From Methanomassiliicoccus sp. (GTDB lineage: Archaea; Thermoplasmatota; Thermoplasmata; Methanomassiliicoccales; Methanomassiliicoccaceae): a stretch of 64,000 bases of DNA. The stretch lies in NCBI GenBank assembly GCA_012719175.1, contig JAAYAX010000004.1:496001-560000 (forward strand), read 5' to 3'. Position numbers and translations under genes: made by a program. This document shows, in pieces, positions 52,147 through 63,265 of this stretch (its first letter is position 1; each line of letters starts with the position of its first letter). The notes beneath the pieces are model-generated. The model saw nothing but the letters and a program-made list of their open reading frames with translations. It was not told the DNA's origin and did no database searches.

Positions 52147-52521
52147 GCCGCGAGGGCGTCACCGTTCTCGTCCAGCGTTCCAATTATAAATAATACATAC
52201 AAAATATTAATTAGTGGTTCCCCCTATAATAGCGTCCGTTCGGTCGGAAGGGGTCCTTGGCGCGGCCGCGGACATGCCTCGTTCCGGACGATATGCCGGG
52301 GTGCCAGAGCATTAATGGAGTGGACCGCAAGTCCATGTTCGATGGTGCAACTCCATCCCCCGGCCCCACAATTCCCCTTGAGGTGACCTCATTATAGAAC
52401 ATGCAACTATGATGGAGCTGCGTGGCATCGTGCGGCCAGAAGGGGGTCGGGACCGTTCTTCCTGTTCAGATCATCATATCGATCCCTCTCGAGCTATCCA
52501 TTCGATCCGGGCGTGCGGATC
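52147..52521. other. Intergenic region with tRNA-like element
   Basis: An AT-rich stretch (52180-52215: TTATAAATAATAC and onward) could be a promoter. The tRNA-like element sits at 52295-52368, about 80-100 bases downstream of it. The rest shows no gene. Confidence 0.5.
52295..52368 (+). tRNA. tRNA-Cys(GCA)-like element, copy 1
   Basis: A complete 74-base cloverleaf can be drawn. Acceptor GCCGGGG pairs 7/7 with CCCCGGC, then C and an encoded CCA. The D arm is CCA/TGG with loop GAGCATTAA. The anticodon arm is GTGGA/TCCAT (one G-U) with loop CCGCAAG, giving GCA at 34-36. The variable loop is GTTC. The T arm is GATGG/CCATC with loop TGCAACT. T8, A14, G15-C48, A21, A26, T54, C56, A57, A58 and T60 are as expected. 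Odd are C33 instead of T33, no G18G19, G55, and C73 (Cys tRNA has T73). It may be a degenerate or specialised tRNA-Cys. Confidence 0.5.
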
Positions 52522-52806
52522 ATGGGGGCGGACAGCGTGGTGAACCGTACCCTGAGGGCACTGGTGATGGCCACTGGGTTCCACTCCGCGCTCCTGTTGA
52601 TGTACGTGGTCGCCAGGATCACCCTCACCAGCGCCTGGGCGGGTCTGGACGATCCCTTCTTCTTCGAGATACCCCAGCTCACGTTCCTGGCCGTGGGTGT
52701 CCTGAGCCTTGCCCTCTGCGCAGCGTGCGTCGTCATCTACCTTGTACTATGGAGGTCGCAGAGCGATGGACGGTCCACCTCTGGACCTGGGGGGCCGATG
52801 CCATGA
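52522..52806 (+). CDS. Small two-helix membrane protein (first type)
   Basis: 94 residues. RTLRALVMATGFHSALLLMY is helix 1, then a polar stretch with GLDDPFFFEIPQLTF, then helix 2 (LAVGVLSLALCAACVVIYLVLW) and a disordered tail. The pattern RA, helix, DPF..xI...F, helix, Y(L)xxW recurs at 37405 and in the next gene. GTG at 52513 is an alternative start; no strong ribosome site is seen. It lies between two tRNA-like copies. The function is unknown. Confidence 0.5.
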   Translation: MGADSVVNRTLRALVMATGFHSALLLMYVVARITLTSAWAGLDDPFFFEIPQLTFLAVGVLSLALCAACVVIYLVLWRSQSDGRSTSGPGGPMP

Positions 52807-52843
52807 TCGTCGTCTTGAACGCGCGTTGTATGGAGGTTGGCGA

Positions 52844-53092
52844 TTGAACGCAGATATCGTCAGTAGATCGACTGTGTGGGGTCGTGCCGTCCTCGCGGTA
52901 TGGCTTCTCAGCCTGCTGTCATGGTGCATCATCGTGGCGTGGATCCTGTCCGGCGGCTGCGCCTGTGATCTGCATACCCCGTTGTTCGGTGACATCTCGT
53001 ACTTAAGCGCGGTCACTACAGGCATGGCCACGTTCTTCCTCAGCTTCGTGAGCATGTTCGCGTACCTGGCGTGGTGGTGGCGGTCAAGCTAG
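52844..53092 (+). CDS. Small two-helix membrane protein (first type)
   Basis: 82 residues. The start is TTG at 52844 with a clear GGAGG (52832-52836) seven bases before. WGRAVLAVWLLSLLSWCIIVAW is helix 1, GGCACDLHTPLFGDISYLSA the loop, and MATFFLSFVSMFAYLAWWW helix 2. It is like the gene 38 bases upstream in layout and motif, a tandem pair. The loop has two or three cysteines (CACD), not shared by the others. Probably an integral membrane protein, perhaps a helper of the neighbouring surface machinery; this is inference only. Confidence 0.55.
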   Translation: MNADIVSRSTVWGRAVLAVWLLSLLSWCIIVAWILSGGCACDLHTPLFGDISYLSAVTTGMATFFLSFVSMFAYLAWWWRSS

Positions 53093-53182
53093 TACTGGTG
53101 ATCCTCCGCATCGAAGCGTAGCCGAAGGTGATGAAGAATTGCCAAGTGATATTACCATCATGGACCATTGTTACGAAGGTTT

Positions 53183-54106
53183 ATGAGAACGAAGTACGCC
53201 GCCATAGGCATGGTCGTTGTCCTCCTCGCCACCGGTTCTGCCGCTGTGTTACTGACCAAGGAATGTGACCGGCCGGGTTACGACCCCCTTGTCGCCGACA
53301 TGGTCCTGAAGATCGATGAGGGCGAGATATACAGCACCATCTACGACCTGCAGAACTTCACGTCCCGCTACTACGGATACTCGGGAAACGAGCTGGCCTC
53401 CGTTTACCTCTTTGAGAGGATGAGCAGCATCCCGGGGCTGCAGGTGGAATTTCAGGGAGGGGCCTACCGCAATGTAATCGCCACCCTGCCGGGTACGGAC
53501 GATGCTTCGACCAAGCTGTTCGTCATTGGAGCGCACTACGACAGCGAGAGCTCCGAGGACCCTGGATACGCCCCGGGGGCCACTGATAACGGCGGGGGTG
53601 CGGCCATCGTCCTGGAGCTGGCCCGGGTCATGAGCCAGTACATTTTCGACCACACCGTGGTGTTCGCACTGTGGAACGCTGAGGAGGGGGGCGCGGAGGT
53701 CATGGGCAGCAAAGTCTACGTGCAGGAGGCCAAGGCGAGCGGCCTGGACATAGCGCTGTACCTCAACTTCGACTCCGCCTGCTACGATCCCGACGGCTCC
53801 ATGGTGCTGGATATAATGTTCGAAGAAAGCACGCGATGCGTCGCTGGCCTCATGAGCGAGAGCAACCAGCTCTACAAGATAGGATTGAAACTGACGTACA
53901 ATGTCCACACCTGCGGCAGCGATCATCGGGCGTTCTGGGCGGAGGGTTATCCCGCGGTCATGACGCATCAGCCGGAGCATGGCCCGGCACACACCGCGAA
54001 CGACACCGTGGACCAGGTCTCGACGCTGTTCGCCAAGAGGAACGGCCAGCTGGGTATGTCGGCGATGGCACACCTGGCGGGCGTTCATGCCATGGCGGAT
54101 GAGTAG
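53183..54106 (+). CDS. Exported M28-family metallopeptidase
   Basis: About 307 residues. A basic start and hydrophobic helix (about 5-24) give export. The zinc peptidase core has GAHYDSE (His and Asp), PGATDNGGGAAI (metal Asp), NAEEGGAEVMGSKVY (catalytic and metal Glu), NFDSA (metal Asp) and HTCGSDHRAFW with the later HTANDT region. This is the aminopeptidase/glutaminyl-cyclase-like M28 set with all ligands in place. It probably cuts peptides outside the cell or at the surface. ATG 53183 follows AAGG; TTG 53168 opens the frame five codons earlier. It lies within the stretch bounded by the tRNA-like copies. Confidence 0.84.
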   Translation: MRTKYAAIGMVVVLLATGSAAVLLTKECDRPGYDPLVADMVLKIDEGEIYSTIYDLQNFTSRYYGYSGNELASVYLFERMSSIPGLQVEFQGGAYRNVIATLPGTDDASTKLFVIGAHYDSESSEDPGYAPGATDNGGGAAIVLELARVMSQYIFDHTVVFALWNAEEGGAEVMGSKVYVQEAKASGLDIALYLNFDSACYDPDGSMVLDIMFEESTRCVAGLMSESNQLYKIGLKLTYNVHTCGSDHRAFWAEGYPAVMTHQPEHGPAHTANDTVDQVSTLFAKRNGQLGMSAMAHLAGVHAMADE

Positions 54107-54227
54107 GGGCTTAGACGTTGGCAGAGGAACTGGGATGTTGCGAACTCACAAGACAGCGATGAAATGTAGGACGCTGGCCATGATAGAGCGCTATCGCCCA
54201 TAGAAATAAATACTAACTGTTAAATTA

Positions 54228-54234
54228 TTATAAA
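54228..54234 (+). promoter_or_regulatory. TATA box of the carbamoyltransferase
   Basis: TTATAAA is about 25 bases before the ATG pair 54255/54261, so a leaderless message is expected. Confidence 0.5.
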
Positions 54235-54254
54235 CATATTCTTGCGTAGGATGG

Positions 54255-55967
54255 ATGGATATGAACATTCTCGGCATCAATTACTATTTCCATGACTCGT
54301 CGGCATGCGTGGTCAGTGACGGCAAGCTCGTGGTGGCCATAGAGGAGGAGAGGCTGACGCGGCAGAAGCATACTGACGCCTTCCCCGAGAGGGCGATCGC
54401 GCGCTGCCTCCAGATCGCCGGCCTCCAGGCTGGGGACATCGACCACATCGCCATATCCATCCAACCGGGGTTGGACCGCGGCAAGAAGTTCACCTATGGG
54501 CTGAGGCAGGGCCGCAGCATGTTCAACTTCTTCAAGATCGAGACCGAGGTAGCGTGGTCGAAGAAAGGCATCCTCAGGTCTTGGCTCAGCAGGACGTACG
54601 ATGGTGCGAAAAGGCCGCAGGTGCATTTCGTCCCCCACCACACCTCGCACGCCGTGGGCACGTTCTTAGTCAGCCCGTACGAGAGCGCCGCGGTGCTGTC
54701 CATCGATGGATCGGGAGAACTGGCCACCATCTTCAAGGGCGTGGGCAAGGAGAACACGTTCCAGTGCCTGTCCCAGGACTACTACCCCTACTCGCTCGGA
54801 ATGGTGTACGAGGCGGCCACGGAGTTCTGCGGCTTCAAGCGCAACTACGACGAGGGTAAGACCATGGGCCTGGCGCCGCTTGGCGATCCCCGGACCTATG
54901 GGAGCGTGGTGGAGAAGATGTTCTGGGTAAACGACGACATGTCCGTGGGCGTGGACCTCTCCTACTTCGGCCACACCTACGGCGCTCCACGGTGCAACGA
55001 GAAGTTCGTCCAGACCTTCGGTCAGCCCCGGCCGGCGGTGAAGACGGCCAAGTTCGAGCAGAACCACCTGGACGTGGCGGCGGCGTTCCAGAAGCAGCTG
55101 GAGGAGTGCATACTGAAGATGGCGCGCCTGCTGCACGAGCGCACCAAGGAGGACTACCTGGTCATCTCCGGAGGGGTGGCCCTCAACAGCGTGGCCAACG
55201 GCCGGCTGGTCAGGGAGAGCGGCTTCAAGGACCTGTACGTGATGCCGGCGGCCGGGGACAACGGCACGGCCATCGGGGCCGCGTACTACGTGTACAACAG
55301 CGTGCTGGGTCAGCCGCGCAACTACGTGCACGACGATCCATATGTCGGGACCGAGTATGGGAACGATGCTCTCAGGCGCCTGCTCGAGGAGTGCAAGCTC
55401 GCGTACCGCCAGCTTCCGGACGGGGAGCTGGAGAGGGAGGCGGCGATGCTGCTGCACCGAGGCGACATCCTGGGGTGGTTCCAGGGCCGCATGGAGATCG
55501 GTCCCCGCGCACTGGGCAACCGCAGCATCCTTGCGGACCCGACGCTACCAGGTATGAAGGACAAGATCAACGCTCAGGTGAAGCATCGTGAGGCGTTCCG
55601 ACCGTTCGCCCCCTCCTGTCCCATCGAGGACACGCCCCGCTTCTTCGAGCAGAACGTGGCCGACCCGTTCATGCTCAAGGTGTGCATGGTGCTGCCTGAG
55701 AAACAGAGTATGATCCCGGCGGTGACGCACGTCGACGGCACGGCGCGCCTGCAGACCATCCACAGGGAGACGAACCCGCGGTTCCACCAGCTACTGAAGG
55801 AGTTCGAGAAGGTAAGCGGCGTCCCGGTGCTGCTGAACACCTCCTTTAACGTGATGGGCGAGCCCATCGTGGAGTCGCCCATGGACGCCATCCGCTGCTT
55901 CTACACCACCGGCCTCGACCACCTGGTGCTGGGTAACTACGTCGTCAGCAAGAACAACTCCGGATGA
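54255..55967 (+). CDS. Carbamoyltransferase (NodU/TobZ family)
   Basis: 570 residues, usual length. NILGINYYFHDSSACVV and VAIEEERLTRQKHTDAFP are the first part of the Kae1-like domain, HFVPHHTSHAVGTFLVSPYE and SIDGSGE the metal site, LVISGGVALNSVANGRL the nucleotide loop. FQGRMEIGPRALGNRSILADP with HREAFRPFAPS is the YrdC-like C-terminal tail. It transfers carbamoyl from carbamoyl phosphate, via carbamoyl-AMP, to a hydroxyl, most often on a sugar. Its codon use is more GC-rich than the flanking radical SAM gene. The start is ATG 54255 or 54261. It probably decorates the glycan. Confidence 0.9.
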   Translation: MDMNILGINYYFHDSSACVVSDGKLVVAIEEERLTRQKHTDAFPERAIARCLQIAGLQAGDIDHIAISIQPGLDRGKKFTYGLRQGRSMFNFFKIETEVAWSKKGILRSWLSRTYDGAKRPQVHFVPHHTSHAVGTFLVSPYESAAVLSIDGSGELATIFKGVGKENTFQCLSQDYYPYSLGMVYEAATEFCGFKRNYDEGKTMGLAPLGDPRTYGSVVEKMFWVNDDMSVGVDLSYFGHTYGAPRCNEKFVQTFGQPRPAVKTAKFEQNHLDVAAAFQKQLEECILKMARLLHERTKEDYLVISGGVALNSVANGRLVRESGFKDLYVMPAAGDNGTAIGAAYYVYNSVLGQPRNYVHDDPYVGTEYGNDALRRLLEECKLAYRQLPDGELEREAAMLLHRGDILGWFQGRMEIGPRALGNRSILADPTLPGMKDKINAQVKHREAFRPFAPSCPIEDTPRFFEQNVADPFMLKVCMVLPEKQSMIPAVTHVDGTARLQTIHRETNPRFHQLLKEFEKVSGVPVLLNTSFNVMGEPIVESPMDAIRCFYTTGLDHLVLGNYVVSKNNSG

Positions 55968-56064
55968 GGGACGATCGAACGAAGGGGGACCATGGCGTTC
56001 CATGGCCCTGTGCTTTCTTTTTCTGTATGTTCCATCAGAGCGGGTTAGTAGTTAGAGACATCAT

Positions 56065-56138
56065 GCCGGAACACCAGAGCATGAATGGAGTGGACCGCAA
56101 GTCCATGTTCGATGGTGCAACTCCATCCCCCGGCCCCA
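56065..56138 (+). pseudogene. tRNA-Cys-like element, copy 2
   Basis: 69 of 74 bases equal copy 1, and similarity stops at exactly the tRNA-like ends including CCA. Changes are GG to AA at acceptor positions 6-7, TG to CA at 8-9, and T to G in the D loop. The acceptor stem therefore has two A-C mismatches, and T8 is lost. The anticodon, variable and T arms are identical. It probably does not work as a normal tRNA. It lies in the same direction as copy 1, 3.7 kb downstream, before the radical SAM gene. Confidence 0.5.
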
Positions 56139-62509: not shown

Positions 62510-63265
62510 CTAGCGGTGAGTTATCTTGTTCCATAGCCCTGCCGTCCTCCTCCCGGCCTTTAACACCGCTGAGTAGTCCTTGAGGTAGGAGTGGCGTGCG
62601 GTGACCTGGCCCCCAAAGCCTCTCTTGAACCTGTTAATCCTCTCCATCTCCGGGTCTGGATGCGCGTCCGAGTAATATCCTCCCAGATCGAAGCTGCTCA
62701 ACCCCTTGTTGTATGCATAGTTGATCGCCTCCCAGACCAGCAGTCGGTTGCCGAAGCTGATCATCTTCTGAATGCTCTCATCAGTCTCCAATCTTCGGGA
62801 GACCGCCTGCAGGCCTCGCATGTACTTATCATCATGTATCGCTAAATAGCCACAGAGTATCTGGCCATTTAGCTCGGCAGTGAACAATGTCCCATGATCT
62901 CTGATGAAGTCCTCAGAGTAGTTATACGGGGCGAGCTTTTTGGATCTTCTGAAGTCCTTATTCATCTGGATGAACTCTACAATATGCGCGTTCCTGTTGA
63001 CCGTGAAACCCTCTTTCTCCGAGCGCCGGATGAACTTCCTGCAGTCCCCGGCCATGTTCTCCCAAACTGGATCCAATCCATGGGAGAGGTCCAGGACCAG
63101 CGTGGACAGTGTTTCACGAGAGAACCCTTTGGCATCTACCACGTCTATGCAGTGGAGATGGCAGATGCTATCTATGCCCTCATCATCATAAGGCCTGTCG
63201 CTGAACCATACTGTGCGCAGCTTGAACATTGATATTTTTTTATCGGTCACCAGAGGCATGATCAT
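62510..63265 (-). CDS. FemAB-like GNAT acyltransferase (short form)
   Basis: 251 residues with only the second GNAT-like half of FemX-type enzymes: KFIRRSEKEGFTV, LFTAELNGQILCGYLAIHDDKYMRGL, then LLVWEAINYAYNKGLSSFDLGGYYSDAHP and INRFKRGFGGQ. FDLGG and KRGFGG are the family's end motifs. It may add an acyl or aminoacyl group to a surface glycan. The open frame starts at ATG 63265; a shorter start at ATG 63229 (MFKLRTVWFSDRP) is also likely. It is distinct from the longer paralogs at 2352, 14240 and 37824. Confidence 0.78.
   Translation of the reverse strand: MIMPLVTDKKISMFKLRTVWFSDRPYDDEGIDSICHLHCIDVVDAKGFSRETLSTLVLDLSHGLDPVWENMAGDCRKFIRRSEKEGFTVNRNAHIVEFIQMNKDFRRSKKLAPYNYSEDFIRDHGTLFTAELNGQILCGYLAIHDDKYMRGLQAVSRRLETDESIQKMISFGNRLLVWEAINYAYNKGLSSFDLGGYYSDAHPDPEMERINRFKRGFGGQVTARHSYLKDYSAVLKAGRRTAGLWNKITHR

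Follow-up and report, generated by a model that had tools for sequence, protein, structure and literature searches.

What is an RNA that looks like a tRNA-Cys, down to an encoded CCA, and lacks bases that ordinary tRNAs keep? The question is raised by two elements in the window, a stretch of 64,000 nucleotides (G000:C4:496001-560000) from a 2.42-Mb, 99.6% complete genome of the genus Methanomassiliicoccus (G000). A sequence-only reading of the window had proposed three options: a dying tRNA, a tRNA with a special use, or a tRNA-shaped mobile or regulatory RNA.

Two copies of a tRNA-Cys-like RNA

The two copies and the parts of copy 1 are as follows.
52225-52230, + strand: TATA-like box TATAAT at -70 of copy 1, a weak putative promoter
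52295-52368, + strand: copy 1, tRNA-Cys-like RNA with an intact cloverleaf (20/20 pairs) and an encoded CCA (fold, ARAGORN, alignment)
52295-52301, + strand: 5' strand of the acceptor stem, GCCGGGG, which pairs with CCCCGGC at 52358-52364 (sequence, fold)
52304-52318, + strand: D arm with a 3-bp stem and a 9-nt loop, GAGCATTAA, that lacks GG
52320-52336, + strand: anticodon arm, loop CCGCAAG with C33; compensatory TA>CG change of the stem in G005
52327-52329, + strand: GCA at the anticodon position (ARAGORN, sequence)
52341-52357, + strand: T arm with the stem GATGG/CCATC (in relatives GAAGG/CCTTC, compensatory) and the loop TGCAACT with G55
52365-52368, + strand: discriminator C73 and encoded CCA, as in the normal tRNA-Cys of the genus
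56065-56138, + strand: copy 2, probably decaying, with A6-C67 and A7-C66 mismatches, C8, A9, and G19

The copies lie on the same strand and share 69 of 74 bases, as had been read from the letters, and their likeness starts at base 1 and stops exactly at the encoded CCA, which bears out the claim that they end at tRNA borders. The five differences are G6A, G7A, T8C, G9A, and T19G. Copy 2 has lost pairs 6-67 and 7-66, the two acceptor mismatches that had been pointed out, and also U8; no TATA-like box was found upstream of it, and it looks like a decaying duplicate. ARAGORN calls copy 1 a tRNA-Cys(GCA), in agreement with the full cloverleaf described earlier, and makes no call for copy 2. The Rfam tRNA model (RF00005) matched neither copy at E<=5 in the window, nor any of the copies at E<=10; the model gives about 52 bits to normal tRNA-Cys genes without introns from the same order.

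Held against an elongator tRNA, copy 1 has the 7-bp acceptor stem, the 5-bp anticodon and T stems, and the CCA, and lacks U33, G18G19, and T54-U55-C56 (it has C33, no GG, and UGC instead). U33 makes the U-turn of the anticodon, and G18G19 and U55 join the D and T loops at the elbow of the L-shape. The unusual C33 and G55 and the absent G18G19 are indeed present in the copies. Both U33 and a D-loop GG stand in every one of the 35 other distinct tRNAs that the genome yielded. GG is likewise absent from the D loops GAGCAUUAA, GAGCAUCAA, and GAGCACUAA found among these odd RNAs, in which positions 17-20 cannot be numbered unambiguously. Pair 51-63 is U-A or A-U in the odd RNAs versus G-C in the normal tRNA-Cys, and pair 49-65 is G-C. 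A D-loop GCA (within 52304-52318) is complementary to the T-loop UGC (within 52346-52352) in all seven odd RNAs, and the two might form a non-standard elbow pairing that replaces G18G19:U55C56.

Conservation and relation to the normal tRNA-Cys

We found the odd RNA in five of seven genomes of the genus (G000, G002, G004, G005, and G006), with two copies in G000 and one in each of the others; the remaining two, G003 (97% complete) and G001 (67% complete), gave no match. One divergent copy lies outside the genus, in a genome from another family of the same order (G132), and no further ones came up when 400 genomes of the class were searched by pattern. Weak DNA matches to bases 26-46 in other genomes were rejected as not tRNA-like in the loci checked. 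C33 occurs in all six sequences from the genus, and G55 and the loss of G18G19 in all seven odd sequences. In the G132 homologue, conservation is letter for letter in the T arm and over most of the D loop. Its anticodon loop is about 4 nt long, CCA is not encoded, and one additional C precedes the acceptor; this copy may be in divergence or decay. MAFFT places one of its anticodon-stem bases wrongly, and its acceptor was not counted as compensated because of the one extra base there.

The RNAs of G000 and G004 are identical at 74 of 74 positions, in flanks that have diverged and beside proteins that are 62-82% identical. G002, G005, and G006 have a neighbourhood of HD-domain and/or gamma-carbonic-anhydrase-like genes in common (proteins 80-86% identical), and their flanks have drifted except for a AGGTTTTAT-like box at -76 to -84. 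Normal tRNAs of G000 have TATA-like boxes nearer to the gene, roughly at -25 to -40, so a longer 5' leader is possible for the odd RNA, with the boxes as weak promoter evidence; that the RNA is transcribed is what we infer.

Compensating changes in relatives had been named as the support to look for, and they were found in both the T stem and the anticodon stem. G005 differs from copy 1 by five changes, four of which make up two compensated pairs (27-41 TA>CG and 49-61 TA>AT, counted along the 74 bases); in simulations with randomly placed changes, two compensated pairs with none broken arose at about 1e-4. The T-stem compensation also occurs in G002 and G006, and G002 has one anticodon-stem mismatch. 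Across six sequences, the formal pair count is modest (two pairs changed on both sides), and the covariation score is reached by 11 of 500 shuffles. RNAfold, whose model leaves out tertiary contacts, places rod-like folds about 1-5 kcal/mol below the cloverleaf; in relatives, the rod of copy 1 has 2-3 of its 25 pairs broken and the cloverleaf keeps 19-20 of 20. Because the RNA is conserved despite diverged flanks and carries compensatory changes, we are confident that copy 1 is a real, conserved, structured RNA gene derived from tRNA-Cys, and not a dying one.

A search of the genome for a normal tRNA-Cys, suggested at the outset, found one: an intron-containing gene at G000:C4:283461-283564 with U33, GG, TTCAAAT, C73, and an intron of about 30 nt. 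It escaped the Rfam tRNA search of G000. A pattern requiring U73 yielded tRNA-Thr and chance matches only, and missed the tRNA-Cys of the genus because the latter has C73 and an intron; another pattern match (L045) was rejected as a chance match that is no tRNA. In most genomes of the order, a covariance model built on the odd RNA retrieves the canonical tRNA-Cys as well. In one genome, two identical canonical tRNA-Cys genes form a tandem pair 122 bases apart (L127:275-348 and 471-544, G041:C223). C73 is found in the canonical tRNA-Cys of the family f1 genomes aligned (A3, L120-L139) and of some other families of the order. U73 is a major cysteine identity element (PMC9976931), and C73 had been counted among the rule-breaking bases of the odd RNA; that count was mistaken. 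Judged by the local canonical tRNA-Cys, which carries it too, C73 is lineage-typical and no defect.

The odd RNA and the canonical tRNA-Cys of G000 are alike in mature length (74 nt), the 3-bp D stem and 9-nt D loop, the 4-nt variable loop, the GCCGGG start of the acceptor, C73, CCA, GCA, U8, A14, G15, and C48. The intron, U33, GG, and U55 of the canonical gene are all missing from the odd RNA, which also has A37 for G37 and another T stem. Among the tRNAs of G000 tested, tRNA-Cys is nevertheless the nearest (47 of 74 bases in common without gaps, same arm lengths), and because it is the closest we take the odd RNA to be its paralogue. CysRS has a single full match in G000, at C4:275693; Thermoplasmata lack SepRS and SepCysS, save for SepRS-like proteins in two lineages (PMC8762117).

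Possible roles of the odd RNA

A tRNA with a special use is the best supported of the three initial options: a normal tRNA-Cys is present, compensating changes keep the stems, and the bases used in translation are lost in every copy. Use outside translation is likely. The parts that CysRS would read are kept and those for decoding and the elbow are lost, which leads us to favour a cysteine-carrying RNA that would be held out of translation. The gene is intronless and of tRNA-Cys origin, and its RNA folds as a cloverleaf whose acceptor stem is normal, with C73, CCA, and GCA in place; because these are kept, and G15 with them, CysRS would probably charge the RNA with cysteine. Without U33, G18G19, U55, and the strong G51-C63 pair, the charged RNA should fit the elongation factor and the ribosome poorly, and its most likely use would be to hand cysteine to a non-ribosomal enzyme that uses aminoacyl-tRNA. 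The cysteine-donor role is a reasoned guess from sequence, and we give the whole reading (a tRNA-Cys paralogue, probably charged by CysRS, kept from translation, and serving to donate cysteine) somewhat less than an even chance. Several findings speak against it, among them the rod-like folds preferred by RNAfold, the lack of a neighbour gene common to all loci, and the distribution of the FemAB-like gene described below. The G132 homologue, with its short anticodon loop, extra base, and missing CCA, would be an unfit substrate for CysRS unless it is decaying, and the odd RNA has A37 in place of G37, which in its methylated form is a determinant for the CysRS of Methanosarcina mazei (PMC9976931).

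A candidate user of the charged RNA is encoded in the window, and three genes there have orthologues at the G004 locus.
53168-54106, + strand: peptidase M28 gene between the copies (context); the G004 orthologue (63% aa identity) lies beside the RNA
54255-55967, + strand: NodU-type carbamoyltransferase gene between the copies (context); the G004 orthologue (82%) lies near the RNA
62510-63265, - strand: FemAB-like protein, a candidate aminoacyl-tRNA-using enzyme; the G004 orthologue lies near the RNA

In G004, a single 216-aa membrane protein (L090:7215-7862) corresponds to two overlapping ORFs that lie in different frames at 52513-53092 (+ strand); these may be either two genes or one frameshifted gene.

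The FemAB-like gene lies about 6 kb from copy 2, inside a polysaccharide-type archaeal gene cluster that is common to G000 and G004, and its G004 orthologue is 65% identical. Among solved structures, the protein comes closest in sequence to 9wqy, an 'aminoacyl-tRNA-dependent peptide synthase' (E 4e-5); FemA (1lrz) is a weak match (E 0.03). The gene had no match at E<=1e-20 in the other carriers (G002, G005, G006, and G132), and the attempt to link it to the odd RNA across carriers failed, with only G000 and G004 having both. Every one of the six carriers has FemAB-like genes of PF13480, as do 28 of 141 other genomes (e.g., G003), a distribution confounded by kinship. The specific version, in which the RNA is charged by CysRS, barred from translation, and consumed by the FemAB-like or another transferase, for example in cell-surface modification, is one candidate and somewhat unlikely.

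The main rival is a regulatory RNA or decoy that would bind CysRS, a processing enzyme, or another tRNA-binding protein, or would sense charging, and would donate no cysteine. The conservation and structure data speak for it too, and it suits the G132 homologue, in which the T arm and the greater part of the D loop survive unchanged despite the loss of the anticodon loop and CCA, as well as the TATA-like boxes that suggest a long 5' leader. The loci differ between lineages and no neighbour gene is common to all of them, so such an RNA would act in trans. GCA, C73, CCA, and the acceptor stem are present in every intact copy of the genus, whereas a decoy would need them less strictly, and we regard this role as fairly unlikely.

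Lineage-specific loci, sharp ends, unrelated flanks, and the two copies in G000 could also mark a mobile or parasitic repeat of tRNA shape, spreading through genomes. Such a repeat is improbable: the other four carriers in the genus have a single copy each, G002, G005, and G006 keep one neighbourhood, phage and plasmid collections hold no match, the pattern search found none in viral contigs, and no mobile-element gene is among the neighbours examined. The initial option of a mobile or regulatory RNA keeps some probability: the differing loci fit it, and against its mobile half stand the neighbours examined, free of mobile-element genes, and the lack of virus, phage, or plasmid matches.

It is less probable still that the odd RNA is a divergent tRNA-Cys isodecoder that translates at low efficiency or under special conditions, although ARAGORN accepts copy 1 and its anticodon, acceptor, and CCA are intact. 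The genome has its normal tRNA-Cys, the other 35 distinct tRNAs tested all keep U33 and GG, and three separate hallmarks have been lost together, with the losses conserved across species.

In favour of a dying tRNA-Cys pseudogene, or a fragment left by integration, copy 2 is damaged and G003 lacks the RNA; integration-derived fragments are commonly mis-annotated as archaeal tRNA genes (PMC9897764). The option of a dying tRNA fits copy 2 and fails for copy 1, which is intact in several species, identical in two of them, and altered by compensated changes in others. It also resembles its nearest tRNA (tRNA-Cys) over the full length at 64%, with no near-identical 3' fragment, which leaves this explanation very improbable. 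Decaying copies without conserved stems, beside a normal tRNA-Cys, were part of the refuting outcome named at the start; the normal tRNA-Cys is there, and copy 1 is not decaying and has stems conserved in relatives. It is extremely improbable that the block encodes a short peptide (MPGCQSINGVDRKSMFDGATPSPGP...) and folds incidentally. One frame stays open through the genus copies, and an in-frame ATG precedes copies 1 and 2 and the RNAs of G002, G005, and G006, but G004 and G132 have none; the downstream sequence differs at every locus, and both the compensation in the T and anticodon stems and the way acceptor pairing sets the ends speak for an RNA and not a protein.

Comparison with known aminoacyl-tRNA donors

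The non-proteinogenic tRNA-Gly of Staphylococcus aureus are the donors of cell-wall pentaglycine used by FemXAB; to our knowledge, dedicated non-translating tRNAs are known mainly from such staphylococcal cell-wall synthesis, and archaea lack bacterial-type peptidoglycan. We found no prior description of the odd RNA in the literature searched, which was mostly other than subscription literature. PEARLs are aminoacyl-tRNA-dependent peptide-forming enzymes, among which TglB uses Cys-tRNA-Cys (PMC12945691). FemXAB and PEARLs are the kind of partner that a cysteine donor outside translation would require, and the window encodes a FemAB-like protein close to copy 2; unlike in those partnerships, no linkage to the odd RNA conserved across carriers was found.

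In the S. aureus tRNA-Gly, GG18-19 is changed to UU or CU and the 51-63 pair is weakened (PMC4052509). The odd RNA resembles them as an extra isoacceptor beside the normal set (here the normal tRNA-Cys at G000:C4:283461), in its replaced G18G19, and in its weakened 51-63 T-stem pair. The S. aureus tRNAs have weak EF-Tu pairs at both A49-U65 and A51-U63, whereas 49-65 is still G-C in the odd RNA, which is moreover archaeal and of cysteine type, has C33 and G55 as well, and has a partner that is only a candidate. A conserved archaeal paralogue that has lost the signature for the ribosome and kept that for the synthetase would show the reassignment of a tRNA out of translation, and would suggest that a methanogen carries out a reaction with cysteine that has gone unrecognised. 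If the cysteine-donor reading is true, the odd RNA would be a non-proteinogenic tRNA of independent origin, from a different domain of life than the tRNA-Gly of S. aureus and with a different amino acid.
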